From: a bacterium
GTDB lineage: Bacteria > ARS69
DNA length: 17,314 bases
Direction: 5' to 3'
Assembly: GCA_025774805.1 (NCBI GenBank)
Contig: JALGZR010000121.1
Span: 1-17,314 of the forward strand
Part shown: piece after piece, positions 3,601 through 17,314 of the stretch
How positions within the stretch are numbered: position 1 is the stretch's first letter
Layout: every line of letters starts with the position of its first letter
Notes under the pieces: model-generated
Databases searched by the model: none
The model's input: only the letters and a program-made list of their open reading frames with translations
What the model was told of the DNA's origin: nothing
Translations under genes and position numbers: made by a program

Positions 3601-5283
3601 TCACGAGAGTGATTCGATCGCCTCCCGGAGCCGCGGGTGCGCCGCGGCCTTGCGAGCGTAGTCGATCTCCCGCCGCCCCCCCTTCGCCCGCACGACCGCC
3701 GCGAGCGCCCGCCGATCCCGCGCCGACCAGCCATCGAGACCGGGAAGGGCGCACAAGAGCGGAGCCATCTCGAGCGCCGCCCATCGCTCCCCGGATTTTC
3801 CCGTTCGGGCGAGCGGTGCGCGGAGCTTCTTCGCCAGTTCCCGTGCGCACACGTTGCGCGCCCGATCGCGGTCTCCCCCGAATCGGTCCGTGACGTACCG
3901 GCTGACGGCCTGGCCGAGGCCTCCGAAGTCGACGGGTCGGCAGGTTCCCCTCGAGAGATCGAAGTGGGCCTCGGTGTTGGACAACTTTCGCAGCGTCTCG
4001 ATCGAGCACCGGTAGCCCGGGCGACGGCGCATGATGTCCTCCTGCTCGCGGGCGAGCGCCTCCACCTCGGGGTTCGTCGCCCGGAATCCGAGCTTGCGAT
4101 AGAACCAGAACGCCCCCGATCTCAGGGCCTCCTCGTTCCCCTCCCCCATCCCGTAGGACGTTAGAAAGAAGTAGCGGACGCTGGCGAGGTGGCGAAGGGC
4201 GCGCATGACGAGCGCGTAGACGAAGCGGATCTCGCCGCCGCGAAACTCGCCGAAGAGATTGATTCCCATCTCGCAGCAGCCCAAGAAGACGCTGGCCGGT
4301 CCGTAGGCCACCGGGATCCCGTTCTTCAGCACGAGGAAGAAGAGAAGGGTCTCCGGCACGCATCGCAGACCGGGCAGCATCCCCACGAGCCAGACTTCCA
4401 GCCCCCGCCCCCCCGACACTACGGTCACGTCCCACGGATTCGCGTAGATCAGGGGATGGATCTCGAGATTGCGGCTGCACAGCGCTCGCAGCGACAGATC
4501 GATTGCCGCCTGCCCCGCGCTCGGGGAGAGATGAGTGACCCCGGCGGGAGGACGCTGAATCCGCGGTCGCAGGGGAAAGTTTGTCCGGGGGACGGGACTT
4601 CTCTGGTAGAAGATCCGGCTCGAGGGGTGGGCGATCTCGCACCGCCCGGACCCCGGGTCCCGGAGCGTGTAGATCACCGGCATCTCGGCGGTCTCGAACA
4701 CGTGCATCTGAACCCTCGGATCGAGTCGGGAGTCGCGCAGCATCTTCAGGATGATCTCCAGCCCGGTCTGTTCCGGACTCGATCGGCAGCTCGACAGCCA
4801 CTCCCGCAGAGAGAGGTACTCGTCCTCGAGCCCCCGCACCTCGGCGGCCGCGGCCGCCAGGATCAGGACGTCGGTCACGGGAGCTTCGACCCGGATCTCC
4901 TCCCAGTCGAGCTCGAGGCATCCGGGGGACAGCGCGACGAGGCGCTGCAGAACCGCGTACGAATACGCGTACGCGTTGCTCGTCCCGGGGAGGCCGGTGT
5001 TCACGAGGGTCGGGTCGCGCGGATCCCCCTTCGTGTACCTCTCGATCCGCGCGCGGAATCGACCGATGTGAGCGTTCACCTCGCGCAGCACGGCGGGATC
5101 GTCGGGGTAGGCGCGCAGGAAATAGAGCGTGTCGTGGAGGCGGACGAGGCGTGCCCGGGACCCGACCGCCCTTTCGGCGATCTCCTCGAGGAGGCGAAGC
5201 TTTTCCGGCGCGGCGGCCGGGCCGAAGTCGCGGGACACCGCGTAGAGCCGGTCGACCGGGTGGCTCGCGGGAGCCCGGCTCAC
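3601..5283 (-). CDS. Conserved hypothetical protein with GNAT-like C-terminal half (possible acyltransferase)
   Basis: 560 aa from the GTG at 5283, whose bases overlap the lyase stop as GTGA, indicating translational coupling; the same frame stays open further upstream but there only shadows the lyase. The N-terminal region (~10-130) has RLHDTLYFLRAYPDDP and TGLPGTSNAYAYSY, which recall a conserved hypothetical family with an 'LHxxLxFLRAYPD...SGIAGT' signature (recalled, not searched). The middle is a helical region. Residues ~285-405 look like an acetyltransferase (GNAT) fold: a strand LLFFLVLKNGIPVAYG, CCEMGINLFGEFRGGEI, a helix, YFFLTSYGMGEGNEEAL, and SGAFWFYRKLGFRA, the last resembling the typical beta4-helix-beta5 GNAT ending. 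The C-terminus is helical and basic. It is the last gene of the cupin-lyase operon, so it may acylate or condense the lyase product. Function is unproven. Confidence 0.75.
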   Translation of the reverse strand: MSRAPASHPVDRLYAVSRDFGPAAAPEKLRLLEEIAERAVGSRARLVRLHDTLYFLRAYPDDPAVLREVNAHIGRFRARIERYTKGDPRDPTLVNTGLPGTSNAYAYSYAVLQRLVALSPGCLELDWEEIRVEAPVTDVLILAAAAAEVRGLEDEYLSLREWLSSCRSSPEQTGLEIILKMLRDSRLDPRVQMHVFETAEMPVIYTLRDPGSGRCEIAHPSSRIFYQRSPVPRTNFPLRPRIQRPPAGVTHLSPSAGQAAIDLSLRALCSRNLEIHPLIYANPWDVTVVSGGRGLEVWLVGMLPGLRCVPETLLFFLVLKNGIPVAYGPASVFLGCCEMGINLFGEFRGGEIRFVYALVMRALRHLASVRYFFLTSYGMGEGNEEALRSGAFWFYRKLGFRATNPEVEALAREQEDIMRRRPGYRCSIETLRKLSNTEAHFDLSRGTCRPVDFGGLGQAVSRYVTDRFGGDRDRARNVCARELAKKLRAPLARTGKSGERWAALEMAPLLCALPGLDGWSARDRRALAAVVRAKGGRREIDYARKAAAHPRLREAIESLS

Positions 5284-6772
5284 CCGAGGCTTCCGACGAC
5301 GGTCTCCACCCCTTCGAGTAGCTGGCACGAGCGAACGAGCTCCTTCATTCGCGTGTGATCGGGGTGAAGCGGGCGATCCTCGTCCAAGAACTCCACGTGC
5401 TCCCGGACGATCTCGCGGCCTCGCGCCACGCCCCGGCCCGGTTTGAACTCTCGGAAGTCGAGAGCCTGCGCCGCCCCCATGAGCTCGATTCCCAGCACAC
5501 CCCAAGCGTTTTCCAGAATCTGCTCGTTCTTGAGGGCGGTGTTCATTCCCATGGAGACGAAGTCCTCCTGATCCGCGGCGGCGGGAATGGAAGCGACCGC
5601 CGCCGGAGCGGACAGGATGCGCTGCTCCACGATGAGGGAGTCGGCGGTGTACTGGCTGAGCATCATGCCGCTGAACATCCCGGCCCCCTTCGTGAGGAAG
5701 GCGGGCAGTCCGGCGCTGAGGGCGGGGTTGAGAAGCCGGTTCAGTCGGCGCTCGGACAGAACCGAGATCATGGTCAACGACGCGCCGACCAACTCCATCG
5801 GCAGGGAGACCGGCGTGCCCTGGAAGTTGGCGCCGGTGAGCGTGAGATCTTCGTCGGGGAAAAAGACCGGGTTGTCCCCCACCCCGTTCAGCTCGATCTC
5901 CACCTGCTTCCTCGCCCAGGCCACGGCATCGTGCGCGGCGCCGATCACCTGCGGGCTCGACCGCATCGAGTAGGCGTCCTGGACCCGCGTCTTCATCTTT
6001 CCCGTGAGCAGGTCGCTCTCGTCGATGCACTTCATGATCGCGCGCGCGCTGCGCACCGCGCCGGGAAAGCCACGCACCTCGTGGAGGCGCGGCTGATAGG
6101 GCTTCAGGTTCGCGAGGAGGGCCTCGAGGGACATGGCGCACGCGATCTCCGCCTGCCGGAGCCAGCGGTCCGCATCGTACAGGAGAAGGGCGCTCATGGC
6201 GGTCAGCACGTTGGACCCGTTGATCACCGAGAGGCCGTCCCGGGCCTCGAGTCCGGGGATCGGGATGCCGGCCCGATCCAGGGCCTCCTTCCCCGGGAGG
6301 AGCTCACCCTCGAAGTAGGCCTCTCCCTCTCCGAGCATCAACAGGGCGATCTGGGACATCGGGGCCAGATCACCGCAGGCCCCCACCGACCCCTTCCGGC
6401 AGACGAAGGGGGTCACGCCCCGGTTGAGCATCTCGACAAGGGTGTCCGTGATCTCGGGACGGCAGCCGGAATGGCCGTGGGCGTGGACGTTGATCCGTCC
6501 GAGCATTGCGCCTCGGACGTGCTCGATCGGAGCCGGGTCTCCGATGCCGGCGGAGTGGTTGTAGATCAGAAAGCGCTGAAACTGCCGGAGCTGATCGTCA
6601 TCGAGGACGATCTCGGAAAACTCCCCGATCCCCGTGTTGACTCCGTACATGATCTCCCGGGCGGAGATCTTCCGCTCGAGCAGCCCTCGACAGCTCCGGA
6701 TCCGCTCGCGCGCCTCGGGTCGGAGCTCGATCCCTCGATCGTCAGGCCCGAGCCGTCCAGCATGACCGGCAT
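5280..6772 (-). CDS. MIO-type aromatic amino acid lyase (histidine ammonia-lyase superfamily), with apparent 1-base frameshift near the 5' end
   Basis: HAL/PAL-fold enzyme, 497 aa if one base is restored. The family eliminates ammonia from histidine, phenylalanine or tyrosine, or shifts the amino group (aminomutases), using an MIO cofactor. The ATG at 6772 has a GGGAGG site and begins MPVMLDGSGLTIEG, the usual start; the frame is then lost at a GGG run (6734-6732) and resumes as GIELRPEARERI. Visible family blocks (corrected numbering): YGVNTGIG (catalytic Tyr43), NHSAGIG (72-78), GSVGACGDLAPMSQ (MIO region, Ala132-Cys133-Gly134, Cys replacing the usual Ser), QDAYSMRSSPQVIG, NGVGDNPVFF, GANFQGTPV and ADQEDFVSMGMN. 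The Phe in QEDFVSM replaces the His seen in classical HAL, and no hut genes are nearby, so histidine is not assured as substrate. The nearest in-frame start after the shift (6650) would remove the conserved N-terminus. Confidence 0.85.
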
Positions 6773-6862
6773 CGTCGTTCCTCCCTTCCCCGGAACCATA
6801 CCGCGCCCATCGCCTTCTGAGCAGGGGGAAGAAACGCGCCCGTCGGCGGCGGGAGCGGGGGC

Positions 6863-7222
6863 CTACGTCCCCTCTTTCGCCCGATAGCGGTCCCGCTCGT
6901 TGAACACGATCAGCGCACGGTACCCGGCCCGCACGGTGGCCGCATGCGGAACTCCCGCCGGAATGAGGAAGCTCTGACCCGGTCCGTGTTCCTCGGATCT
7001 CCCCTCCCGGTGGAGGACCACGTTCCCGGAGAGGGGCATCTCCCACTGCTCGGCGTGGGCATGCTCGGGAACCTCGACGGGATCGTTGCACTCGAGAAGG
7101 ACAACCTGATGCTCTTCTCCCTGCAGGAGCCAACCCCGCGCCCCCGGGAACGGGAGGTCGATCTCGGGGAGATCCCGGAGAAACTCCGGAATCAACTCGG
7201 CGGACGGTGCGGGCTTTCTCAT
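6863..7222 (-). CDS. Small cupin-domain protein
   Basis: 119 aa from ATG at 7222, preceded by a strong GGAGGTGA site. Single-domain cupin: motif 1 is seen as PEHAHAEQWEMPLSGNVVL (residues ~52-70, with two His and a Glu as likely metal ligands), and motif 2 as GQSFLIPAGVPHAA (82-95, with the second-motif His). The length is normal for a stand-alone cupin. Such proteins bind a metal or small ligand and act as isomerases, dioxygenases or sensors, so sequence alone gives no reaction. It is the first gene of the operon with the MIO lyase, 90 bp apart and on the same strand, which suggests that it acts on, or senses, the same metabolite. Confidence 0.8.
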   Translation of the reverse strand: MRKPAPSAELIPEFLRDLPEIDLPFPGARGWLLQGEEHQVVLLECNDPVEVPEHAHAEQWEMPLSGNVVLHREGRSEEHGPGQSFLIPAGVPHAATVRAGYRALIVFNERDRYRAKEGT

Positions 7223-13518: not shown

Positions 13519-13552
13519 TTCGAGACGTGGCCCTTGACCCCGACGTCTCGAA
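13519..13552. repeat. Inverted repeat spanning the -35 box of the TetR operon
   Basis: TTCGAGACGT (13519-13528) and ACGTCTCGAA (13543-13552) are perfect 10-bp inverted arms separated by 14 bp. The -35 hexamer (13534-13539) lies inside the spacer. Arm centres are 24 bp apart. It differs in sequence from the downstream palindrome, so it may be the site of a second regulator. Confidence 0.5.
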
Positions 13553-13562
13553 TGCCTAAGAT
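13534..13562 (+). promoter_or_regulatory. Sigma70-like promoter of the tetR-benzoyl-CoA reductase operon
   Basis: TTGACC (13534-13539), a 17-bp spacer and TAAGAT (13557-13562). Transcription would start around 13569, inside the adjoining palindrome, leaving a leader of about 44 nt before the ATG at 13613. Box quality and spacing are good. Confidence 0.7.
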
Positions 13563-13588
13563 GAACATACCGACCGGTCGGTATGTTC
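13563..13588. promoter_or_regulatory. Perfect 26-bp palindrome, probable TetR-family operator
   Basis: The arm GAACATACCGACC (13563-13575) is followed directly by its reverse complement GGTCGGTATGTTC (13576-13588), with no mismatch and no spacer. It starts on the base after the -10 box and covers the expected transcription start. Bound protein would block initiation. The adjacent downstream gene is a TetR-family regulator, so autorepression of the whole operon is the obvious reading. The core ACCGACCGGTCGGT is a form seen at operators of several TetR-type repressors. Confidence 0.75.
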
Positions 13589-13612
13589 CTTCCTCGGCCC
13601 CCCGGAGGCCGC

Positions 13613-14218
13613 ATGATCCTCACGAAGTCACGAAACACGGTGGCCAAGATCCTGGCGGCGGCTCAGGAGCTCTTCCTGGAGAAGAACTACGCCGACGTGA
13701 CGATGGACCGGATCGCCCAGGCGGCGGCCGTCACCAAGGGCGCGCTCTACCACCACTTCGCGAGCAAGGAAGAGCTGTACCTGGCCCTCCTCCACCGCGA
13801 TCTCGACGAGAAGCGGGAGGTCTTCCGCAGTGCCGTCGACTCTTCCGGCAGCGCCCTGGATCGGCTACGCCGTCTCACGAGAGCGTTCTTCGAGCTGCCG
13901 GCCCCGAAGCGGGAGCTCATTCGACTGATCCGACGGGACGTGAACGTATTTCGGGACCCGGTTCGTGCCGACCTGATCCGGGCCTATCGGATCTCCCTCC
14001 CCGACCCGGTGGAGAGGATCCTCCGGGACGGCATCCGGGACGGGGAGCTCGTGGCCACCGATCCCCGCCTTCTCGCCTGGTCCTTCATCGCTCTCGTGGA
14101 AGTCTTCCTGAGCGGACACGCCGCCCAGGTCTTTCCCGATATGGACTCCCGGCTGGACCACGTCATGAACCTCTTCTTCGGGGGCGCCGCAGCGCCCCGA
14201 CCCGGAGCGATCCCGTGA
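13613..14218 (+). CDS. TetR/AcrR family transcriptional regulator, probable repressor of the benzoyl-CoA reductase operon
   Basis: 201 aa from ATG at 13613, with CCGGAGG just upstream; the earlier in-frame ATG at 13583 falls inside the palindrome and lacks a ribosome site. The N-terminal helix-turn-helix is clear: ILAAAQELFLEKNYADVTMD, then RIAQAAAVTKGALYHHFASK with the family's YHHF-x-SKEEL ending (residues ~12-56). The C-terminal ligand domain (~60-200) is helical and shows no motif that identifies the ligand. The gene's stop overlaps the GTG of the next gene (GTGA), so the regulator is co-translated with the reductase subunits. By analogy with other aromatic-CoA operons, the ligand may be benzoyl-CoA or another acyl-CoA; that is inference. 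Confidence 0.92.
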   Translation: MILTKSRNTVAKILAAAQELFLEKNYADVTMDRIAQAAAVTKGALYHHFASKEELYLALLHRDLDEKREVFRSAVDSSGSALDRLRRLTRAFFELPAPKRELIRLIRRDVNVFRDPVRADLIRAYRISLPDPVERILRDGIRDGELVATDPRLLAWSFIALVEVFLSGHAAQVFPDMDSRLDHVMNLFFGGAAAPRPGAIP

Positions 14219-15381
14219 AGACTCCGGTGTTCGAGGAGTGGCGCGACCGACCGCTCGACGAGGTGCTCATCGCCTGCCGCGACCTCGTCGAGGACTCCGA
14301 GTTCGTGACCGTGAAACGGTGGCGCGAGAACGGCGGCAAGGTGTTGGGTCACTTCCAGGTCTACTTCCCCGAAGAGATCGCCCACGCGGCAGGAATGCTT
14401 CCGGTCAAGATCCGCGGCGCGTCGCTCGAGGCGACGAACGCCGATTCCCATTTCGGCTCCTATCTCTGTTCGATCCTGAAGACCTCCCTCGAGCTCGCAT
14501 TGAGCGGTCGGATCCGCCTCGACATGTTCGTCTCTCACCCGATCTGCGACGCTGCGCGCAATCTCGCCGCCATCTGGGGAAGGAACTTCTCTCATCCCTG
14601 CCAAATCCTCTACCTCCCTCAAAACGCAAACTCGTCTCACAGCGCGACGTATCTTCGAGGCGAGTACGACCGCCTGAGACGCGTCGCGGAAGAGGTTGCC
14701 GGCCGGTCCGTATCCGATGACGACCTTCGTCGATCCATCGAGGTCTTCAACGAGAACCGGCGCCTCCTCCGTGAGCTCTACCGAATCAAGCGAGACACCC
14801 CCTGGCTCGTCGCCGCCGAGGACGCCTACTGCCTGACCGCCGTGGCGGGCATGGTTCCGCGCGAGGAGCACAACGAGCTCCTGAGCACCGTACTTCCGCA
14901 GTTGAGATCGCGCACCGCACGCTCCCAGGACCGGGTCCGTGTCGTCTTCGAGGGCGGATTCTGCGAGCAGCCACCCCTCGATCTGATCCGCATGCTCGGC
15001 CGCACCTGTTACGTGGTGGACGACGACCTCCTCATCGGACTGCGCTGGATCACGGAAGACGTTCCTCTCGACGGTGATCCGCTCGCCTCCCTCGCGGAGT
15101 CGTACCTCGAGCGGTCGTCGTACAGTCCGGTTCAGCACGACCTGCGCAAGCCGAAGGAGCGAATGCTCCTTCAGCGGATCGATTCCTCCCGGGCCGACGC
15201 CGCGATCATCGCCGCCGCGAAGATGTGCGAGCCGGGTCTCGAAGAGCAGGTCGCCTACACCCATGCCCTTGACGAACGCGGCATCCCCTTCTTCGTGACC
15301 GAGTTCGAGGAGAACATGACGTCCTTCGAGCACCTCGAGCTTCAGGTGGAGACCTTCCTTGAGAACCTGCTCTTCGCCTGA
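14215..15381 (+). CDS. bcrC: Benzoyl-CoA reductase subunit C-like protein (2-hydroxyacyl-CoA dehydratase D-component family)
   Basis: 388 aa from GTG at 14215, overlapping the tetR stop by four bases. The protein belongs to the family that holds the [4Fe-4S]-bearing catalytic subunits of class I benzoyl-CoA reductase and 2-hydroxyacyl-CoA dehydratases. Typical blocks are LGHFQVYFPEEIAHAAGMLP (44-63), SHFGSYLCSILKTSLELALS (Cys85), FVSHPICDAARNLAAIWG (Cys111), VVFEGGFCEQPPLDLIRMLG (Cys250) and a final AAKMCEPG (Cys338). Cys85, 111 and 250 are the expected cluster-ligand candidates. Length and the order C-B-ATPase match bcrCBAD/bzdNOPQ. The complex uses ATP and reduced ferredoxin to reduce benzoyl-CoA to a cyclohexadiene-carboxyl-CoA in anoxic cytoplasm. 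A 2-hydroxyacyl-CoA dehydratase of the same family is the alternative; the subunit B sequence makes the reductase more likely. Confidence 0.85.
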   Translation: MKTPVFEEWRDRPLDEVLIACRDLVEDSEFVTVKRWRENGGKVLGHFQVYFPEEIAHAAGMLPVKIRGASLEATNADSHFGSYLCSILKTSLELALSGRIRLDMFVSHPICDAARNLAAIWGRNFSHPCQILYLPQNANSSHSATYLRGEYDRLRRVAEEVAGRSVSDDDLRRSIEVFNENRRLLRELYRIKRDTPWLVAAEDAYCLTAVAGMVPREEHNELLSTVLPQLRSRTARSQDRVRVVFEGGFCEQPPLDLIRMLGRTCYVVDDDLLIGLRWITEDVPLDGDPLASLAESYLERSSYSPVQHDLRKPKERMLLQRIDSSRADAAIIAAAKMCEPGLEEQVAYTHALDERGIPFFVTEFEENMTSFEHLELQVETFLENLLFA

Positions 15382-16726: not shown

Positions 16727-17314
16727 ATGGCCTACGCAGCCGGCGTGGACGTCGGATCCACGCAGACGAAAGCGGTCATCATCGGCGAGGACCGGAAGAT
16801 CCACGGCCGGGCGCTGATCGACACCGGCTCCAACGTGATCATGGCCGCCGAGGCCGCCTACCAGGAGGCGCTGGAGAGCGGCGACATCGGGGAGGAGGAG
16901 GTCGAGTACGTCATCGGTACGGGATACGGACGCTACCGCGTGACGTTCGGAAACGCACAGGTCACCGAGATCAGCTGCCACGGCCGCGGGGCGGTGCACC
17001 TCTTTCCCGGCACCCGCACCGTCGTGGACATGGGCGGGCAGGACACGAAAGCCATTCAGGTGAGCCCCACCGGGGAGATCGTGGACTTCTGCATGAACGA
17101 CAAGTGCGCCGCCGGTACCGGGCGGTTCTTGGGAGCCGCGGCCACCGCCCTCGGTATCCCGCTCGGGGACCTCGGCCCGACGGCCCTCCGGTCGGAGAAG
17201 CCGGTCCGCATCAGCACGACCTGCACCGTCTTCGCCGAGTCGGAGGTCCTCTCCTGGTTGGGCAAGGGCAAGAAGATCGAAGACATCCTCTGGGGGGTCC
17301 ACCAATCGATCGCG
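16727..17314 (+). CDS. BadF/BadG/BcrA/BcrD-type ATPase subunit of benzoyl-CoA reductase (partial, 3' end outside window)
   Basis: 196 codons are present from ATG at 16727, seven bases after the bcrB stop and behind a GGAG site; the frame is open to the window end. The ASKHA-fold ATPase signatures are clear: [15 protein letters not shown] (phosphate-1, residues 6-20), [11 protein letters not shown] (64-74), [14 protein letters not shown] (phosphate-2, 99-112), [15 protein letters not shown] (Cys127) and [20 protein letters not shown] (Cys166). The two Cys are those that bind the [4Fe-4S] cluster shared between the paired ATPase subunits. The subunit couples ATP hydrolysis to low-potential electron transfer to the B/C half. 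In bcrCBAD/bzdNOPQ order the third gene is the A-type subunit, but A and D cannot be told apart on this fragment, and a second ATPase gene is expected just downstream. Confidence 0.9.

Follow-up and report, generated by a model that had tools for sequence, protein, structure and literature searches.

A TetR-family leader gene and a palindromic operator predicted to control an MBR-type benzoyl-CoA reductase operon

The closest described counterpart of the locus analysed here is found in Azoarcus sp. CIB, in which MbdR, the first TetR-family member among the aryl-CoA-responsive regulators of anaerobic aromatic catabolism, represses the mbd genes through the operator ATACN10GTAT, represses its own promoter and has 3-methylbenzoyl-CoA as its inducer (PMC4424350). 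Benzoyl-CoA is the signal for two further Azoarcus regulators, the paralogues BzdR and BoxR, which serve the anaerobic and the aerobic route, respectively, and the TetR-family protein PaaR of Thermus answers phenylacetyl-CoA and controls the paa pathway (PMC4424350). A preliminary description of the DNA studied here had presented TetR control of a benzoyl-CoA reductase operon as a different scheme. Such control is already known, as MbdR governs the 3-methylbenzoyl-CoA reductase (MBR) of Azoarcus sp. CIB (PMC4424350), and the novelty of TetR control as such falls with that precedent. What does appear undescribed is the regulator clade reported below, its leader-gene position and its spread, for which we found no description in the literature searched; nor did that literature name Microthrix with a benzoyl-CoA reductase.

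The window, a stretch of 17,314 nucleotides, is the whole of contig C109 and ends within the first ATPase gene of the operon. The contig belongs to G000, a metagenome-assembled genome of 5.1 Mb from a little-sampled lineage, with 96% completeness and 5% contamination. The features on which the analysis rests are these:

13534–13539, + strand: −35 box TTGACC, with a 17-nt spacer to the −10 box
13557–13562, + strand: −10 box TAAGAT, its last base directly preceding the palindrome
13563–13588, strand not applicable: perfect 26-bp palindrome, predicted operator, spanning the expected transcription start at about 13569
13567–13584, strand not applicable: 18-bp core ATACCGACCGGTCGGTAT, matching the MbdR operator pattern ATACN10GTAT
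13604–13608, + strand: tetR Shine-Dalgarno sequence GGAGG (direct reading)
13613–14218, + strand: regulator of the TetR family (201 aa), encoded by the leading gene of the operon (PF00440, alignment, AlphaFold2 model)
14215–15381, + strand: bcrC/mbdN-like reductase subunit, beginning with GTG; identity to MbdN of Azoarcus sp. CIB about 60%, score against 9g87_B 535 bits
15413–16720, + strand: bcrB/mbdO-like reductase subunit, 54% identical to MbdO, profile score 619 bits to 9g87_A
16727–17314, + strand: activator ATPase of the BadF/BadG/BcrA/BcrD family (PF01869; TIGR00241 over cut-off), cut by the contig end

Promoter, operator and regulator gene

The arrangement at the head of the operon was borne out by direct reading of the coordinates: as had been claimed, the −10 box adjoins a mismatch-free 26-bp palindrome that covers the expected transcription start, and 13534, where the earlier annotation began, is the first base of the −35 box. 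The promoter TTGACC-N17-TAAGAT agrees with the consensus at 9 of 12 positions. The palindrome consists of two 13-nt arms, GAACATACCGACC and GGTCGGTATGTTC, with zero loop and zero mismatches, and is the sole close-armed inverted repeat of at least 12 nt between 12800 and 17314. When the window was resampled 60 times under a first-order Markov model, the longest perfect arm was never above 10 nt (mean 7.8), so that an arm of 13 nt lies beyond chance. The 18-bp core of the palindrome fits ATACN10GTAT and lies at the expected start site of the operon. We regard these DNA elements, together with the conservation described below, as near certain.

Translation of tetR probably starts at ATG 13613, with GGAGG at 13604–13608, rather than at the ATG at 13583 chosen by ORF finders, which lies within the palindrome; orthologues align from about residue 4. 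At the other end, the tetR stop (TGA, 14216–14218) overlaps the reductase start (GTG, 14215–14217) in the sequence GTGA, as previously described. The protein belongs to the TetR family by both its TetR_N helix-turn-helix (HTH) and its fold: it scores 65.3 bits against PF00440 (cut-off 24) and 29.1 against PF17932 (cut-off 26.4), and its AlphaFold2 model (pLDDT 89) has an ordinary, all-helical TetR fold, with Z scores of 16.8–18.2 against QacR, FadR and MbdR. Structural matches include FadR with acyl-CoA, AibR with isovaleryl-CoA and FasR, beside QacR and MbdR, a set too mixed to distinguish binding of an acyl-CoA from binding of drugs as in QacR.

Reductase type and pathway context

The preliminary description had called the downstream genes a benzoyl-CoA reductase operon. 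The ring-reductase assignment is very probably right; the subtype is not BcrCBAD of Thauera, as bcrC and bcrB both fall under the cut-offs of the NCBIfam equivalogs TIGR02263 and TIGR02260 (265 against 421 and 193 against 487 bits) and MbdN and MbdO match best. Scores against MBR (9g87) were 535–619 bits, with profiles reaching 619 bits for both MbdN and MbdO, compared with 103–227 for BzdN and HadC and 108–139 for BzdO and HadB, so that the closest sequences are MbdN and MbdO rather than BzdNO or the dehydratases. In addition, the ATPase is 76.5% identical to its Azoarcus sp. CIB orthologue, and a tree places the reductase clade of the window with MbdN, at a weakly supported node. Invariant cysteines in both catalytic subunits (BcrC C85, C111, C250 and C338; BcrB C91, C124, C281 and C369) would, by family resemblance, be available as [4Fe-4S] ligands. 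From its sequence the enzyme is predicted to be an ATP-dependent class I benzoyl-CoA reductase of MBR type. One activator ATPase is visible before the contig end, and relatives have two. A plasmid search for the reductase returned only relatives of about 23–32% identity.

In several loci from several phyla, a gene for a small protein of about 90–97 aa with a conserved C-terminal C..C lies directly 3′ of the second ATPase gene; examples of this protein are L006:12769-13056, L126:10307-10582(-), L129:12623-12916, L133:9523-9801(-) and L020:6946-7218, and the three tested had no Pfam match. Within the window itself, positions 5280–7133 (− strand) hold an ORF resembling histidine/aromatic ammonia-lyases, with ACG (GSVGACGDLAP) in its MIO motif in place of the usual ASG.

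On contig C270 of the same genome, had, oah and dch score over their equivalog cut-offs (461/339, 574/464 and 302/293 bits), which indicates that an anaerobic-type benzoyl-CoA pathway is encoded and lends support to the predicted ring reduction; oah was over cut-off in 9/14 of the tetR genomes searched. A scan of this had-oah-dch region (L123), on its separate contig, found no convincing operator, so that the pathway is not under a single site. In Microthrix and other Acidimicrobiia (L126, L134, L135), the MBR-type operon adjoins had and oah, the latter over cut-off. L126 also carries a thiolase gene and genes for a molybdenum hydroxylase similar to 4-hydroxybenzoyl-CoA reductase, and a gene for hemerythrin is oriented divergently to its tetR.

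Conservation of the operator and the proposed switch

A scan of named genomes returned 20 tetR orthologues at 49–60% identity, with the next sequences at no more than 34% over comparable lengths. Among relatives that have the operon the nearest is G002 (tetR 63% and bcrC 80% identical), which carries ATACCGACCAGTCGGTAT 5′ of tetR. An operator precedes the tetR orthologue in all 35 loci with readable upstream DNA, so that conservation of the palindrome among relatives with the same tetR-bcr arrangement, on which the preliminary description had staked its claim, held throughout. Thirty of these loci are visibly tetR-bcrC linked, two are ended by a contig end and three are Chloroflexota operons lacking bcr; together they span at least five named phyla, the taxon names being those of metagenome-assembled genomes, in which misbinning is possible. 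When the motif was tested by leaving one locus out at a time, 21/21 upstream regions outscored all 207–289 control windows, and a −35-like TTGAC lies 30–39 nt 5′ of the operator in 20/21 loci measured, so that the spacing of promoter and operator is conserved as well. Fourteen further loci, independent of the motif definition, carry the operator or an actinobacterial variant, mostly with 0–2 mismatches (L162, L166 and L173 are more diverged). In Acidimicrobiia the operator is longer, ACCGACCGGTCAGTCGGTCGGT, and its half-sites overlap. After tetR comes bcrC in every matched genome of the Acidimicrobiia (12/12) and Planctomycetota (8/8), and the same order recurs in loci from Gammaproteobacteria, Elusimicrobia and Bacteriovoracaceae.

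Within G000 there is exactly one strong copy of the operator (0–1 mismatch to the 18-bp core), which points to local autoregulation. The planctomycete genome G101 has a second operator-like site (L130:9356-9373; 1 mismatch in 18, unexpected by chance) in its second reductase cluster, which also contains oah, dch and had. Because it is located in coding sequence, inside a radical-SAM ORF and directly 5′ of an internal ATG, we left it out of the regulon.

In three Chloroflexota genomes (L005:8572-14342, L010 and L024), a tetR orthologue and operator head a PaaABCD-like multicomponent oxygenase operon with genes for an aldehyde dehydrogenase, an enoyl-CoA hydratase and PaaA-, PaaD- and PaaC-like proteins; the frame between the last two is read as PaaB-like. 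This operon is distinct from true paa, as its PaaA-like protein reaches about 105 bits where the PaaA cut-off is 280. The same three genomes hold an MBR-type reductase, and scans of Chloroflexota reductase operons (L127, L128, L132) found no convincing operator. In a fourth Chloroflexota genome, tetR is flanked by a kynureninase-like gene on one side and the beginning of a gene resembling salicylyl-CoA 5-hydroxylase on the other; there the best operator-like site is weak (5–6 mismatches) and lies 28 nt 5′ of the kynureninase start. As the same TetR accompanies PaaABCD-like epoxidase or kynureninase/salicylyl-CoA-hydroxylase-like genes, its signal is probably an aryl-CoA, which would be the common denominator of all contexts.

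Taken together, gene order and conservation support the earlier proposal of one autoregulated tetR-reductase operon with its operator on the expected start site, and we judge it likely that the leader-gene TetR represses its own MBR-type operon. A TetR dimer most likely binds the 26-bp palindrome; with the expected start of transcription inside the site and the −10 box adjoining it, bound TetR would obstruct RNA polymerase and keep the regulator and reductase genes low. Release of TetR by benzoyl-CoA or a substituted benzoyl-CoA-type thioester would then let the substrate induce the enzyme. An inducer of the benzoyl-CoA class is favoured, with rather less assurance than the autoregulation; repressor sign, dimer binding, an aryl-CoA inducer and the aryl-CoA substrate of the enzyme are all inferred.

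A broader reading, to which we give even odds, is that this undescribed TetR clade is a benzoyl-CoA-class sensor, kept as a regulator-operator cassette with MBR-type reductases across five or more phyla and, in Chloroflexota, transferred to aerobic aryl-CoA routes. Those routes would be the PaaABCD-like epoxidase operon and genes that resemble a route from kynureninase to 2-aminobenzoyl-CoA. If the clade is such a sensor, the regulator could be used to find unknown aryl-CoA pathways. The switch is predicted for MBR-type ring reduction in many uncultivated bacteria, including lineages of Acidimicrobiia, Planctomycetota and Elusimicrobiota; the prediction is carried by one short DNA site that is testable in vitro. 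TetR control of these reductases, represented by one system in the literature searched, is thereby widened to a regulator clade over several phyla, which offers a handle for assigning a substrate to the Chloroflexota epoxidase operon.

Alternative readings and comparison with known systems

It could be argued that the regulator is no other than MbdR, found in a different phylum with the same TetR, operator and enzyme as in Azoarcus sp. CIB. The shared enzyme subtype and the fit to ATACN10GTAT speak for this, as do two MbdR operators from the CIB region, which have 11–15 of 18 bases in common with the operators here (14–15 for one of them). However, when MbdR, located in the CIB genome via the cloning-primer sequences given in PMC4424350, was compared with the window protein, the two could be aligned over 55 HTH residues only (38% identity; about 25% globally), so that the TetR here is not a full-length orthologue of MbdR, ligand domain included; the structural alignment (Z 16.8) has 20% identity. 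A tree of TetR proteins, with long branches and weak deep support, puts MbdR outside the clade, and mbdR stands apart as a gene read from a promoter of its own, whereas the TetR here leads its operon. We therefore consider identity with MbdR unlikely. In Aromatoleum diolicum, no MbdR was found next to the paralogues of the reductase.

Quite improbable, too, is a role of the TetR as an activator, or as a generic repressor for stress or efflux, that stands before the reductase genes by coincidence and binds a ligand other than an aryl-CoA. QacR is among the best structural matches and TetR proteins can also activate, as does FasR, which likewise matches well; yet its gene is linked to bcrC in all matched genomes of Acidimicrobiia and Planctomycetota and to other aryl-CoA operons in Chloroflexota, which would not be expected of a generic regulator, and an operator placed on the start site agrees with repression. 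As for the enzyme, the scores under the curated benzoyl-CoA reductase C and B cut-offs might suggest a 2-hydroxyacyl-CoA dehydratase of the same superfamily rather than a ring reductase. Those cut-offs describe the Thauera subtype, however, while the MBR scores are far above those for HadBC (138–227 bits) and had, oah and dch occur in the same genome, with oah recurring among the tetR genomes as noted above, which makes a dehydratase very improbable. The preferred reading is thus an autoregulated MBR-type reductase operon under an aryl-CoA-responsive TetR repressor.

Viewed against known regulators, BadR of Rhodopseudomonas, which also controls a benzoyl-CoA pathway, is of the MarR family, unlike TetR. 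BzdR and BoxR likewise regulate benzoyl-CoA pathways but belong to another, XRE-like family (PMC4424350). PaaR is comparable, by its description, to the Chloroflexota operons, being a TetR protein with an aryl-CoA response, although the Chloroflexota PaaA-like protein is not a true PaaA. The nearest likeness is to MbdR and mbd of Azoarcus sp. CIB (structures 4uds for MbdR and 9g87 for MBR), with which the locus shares a TetR-family regulator, an MBR-type enzyme with subunits 54–77% identical and, as predicted here, repression of the operon and of the regulator's own promoter through an ATACN10GTAT operator over the start site. It differs in that CIB mbdR, from its own promoter, acts on several target promoters among several mbd operons, whereas the TetR gene here is the first of its operon and has a single strong site in the genome.
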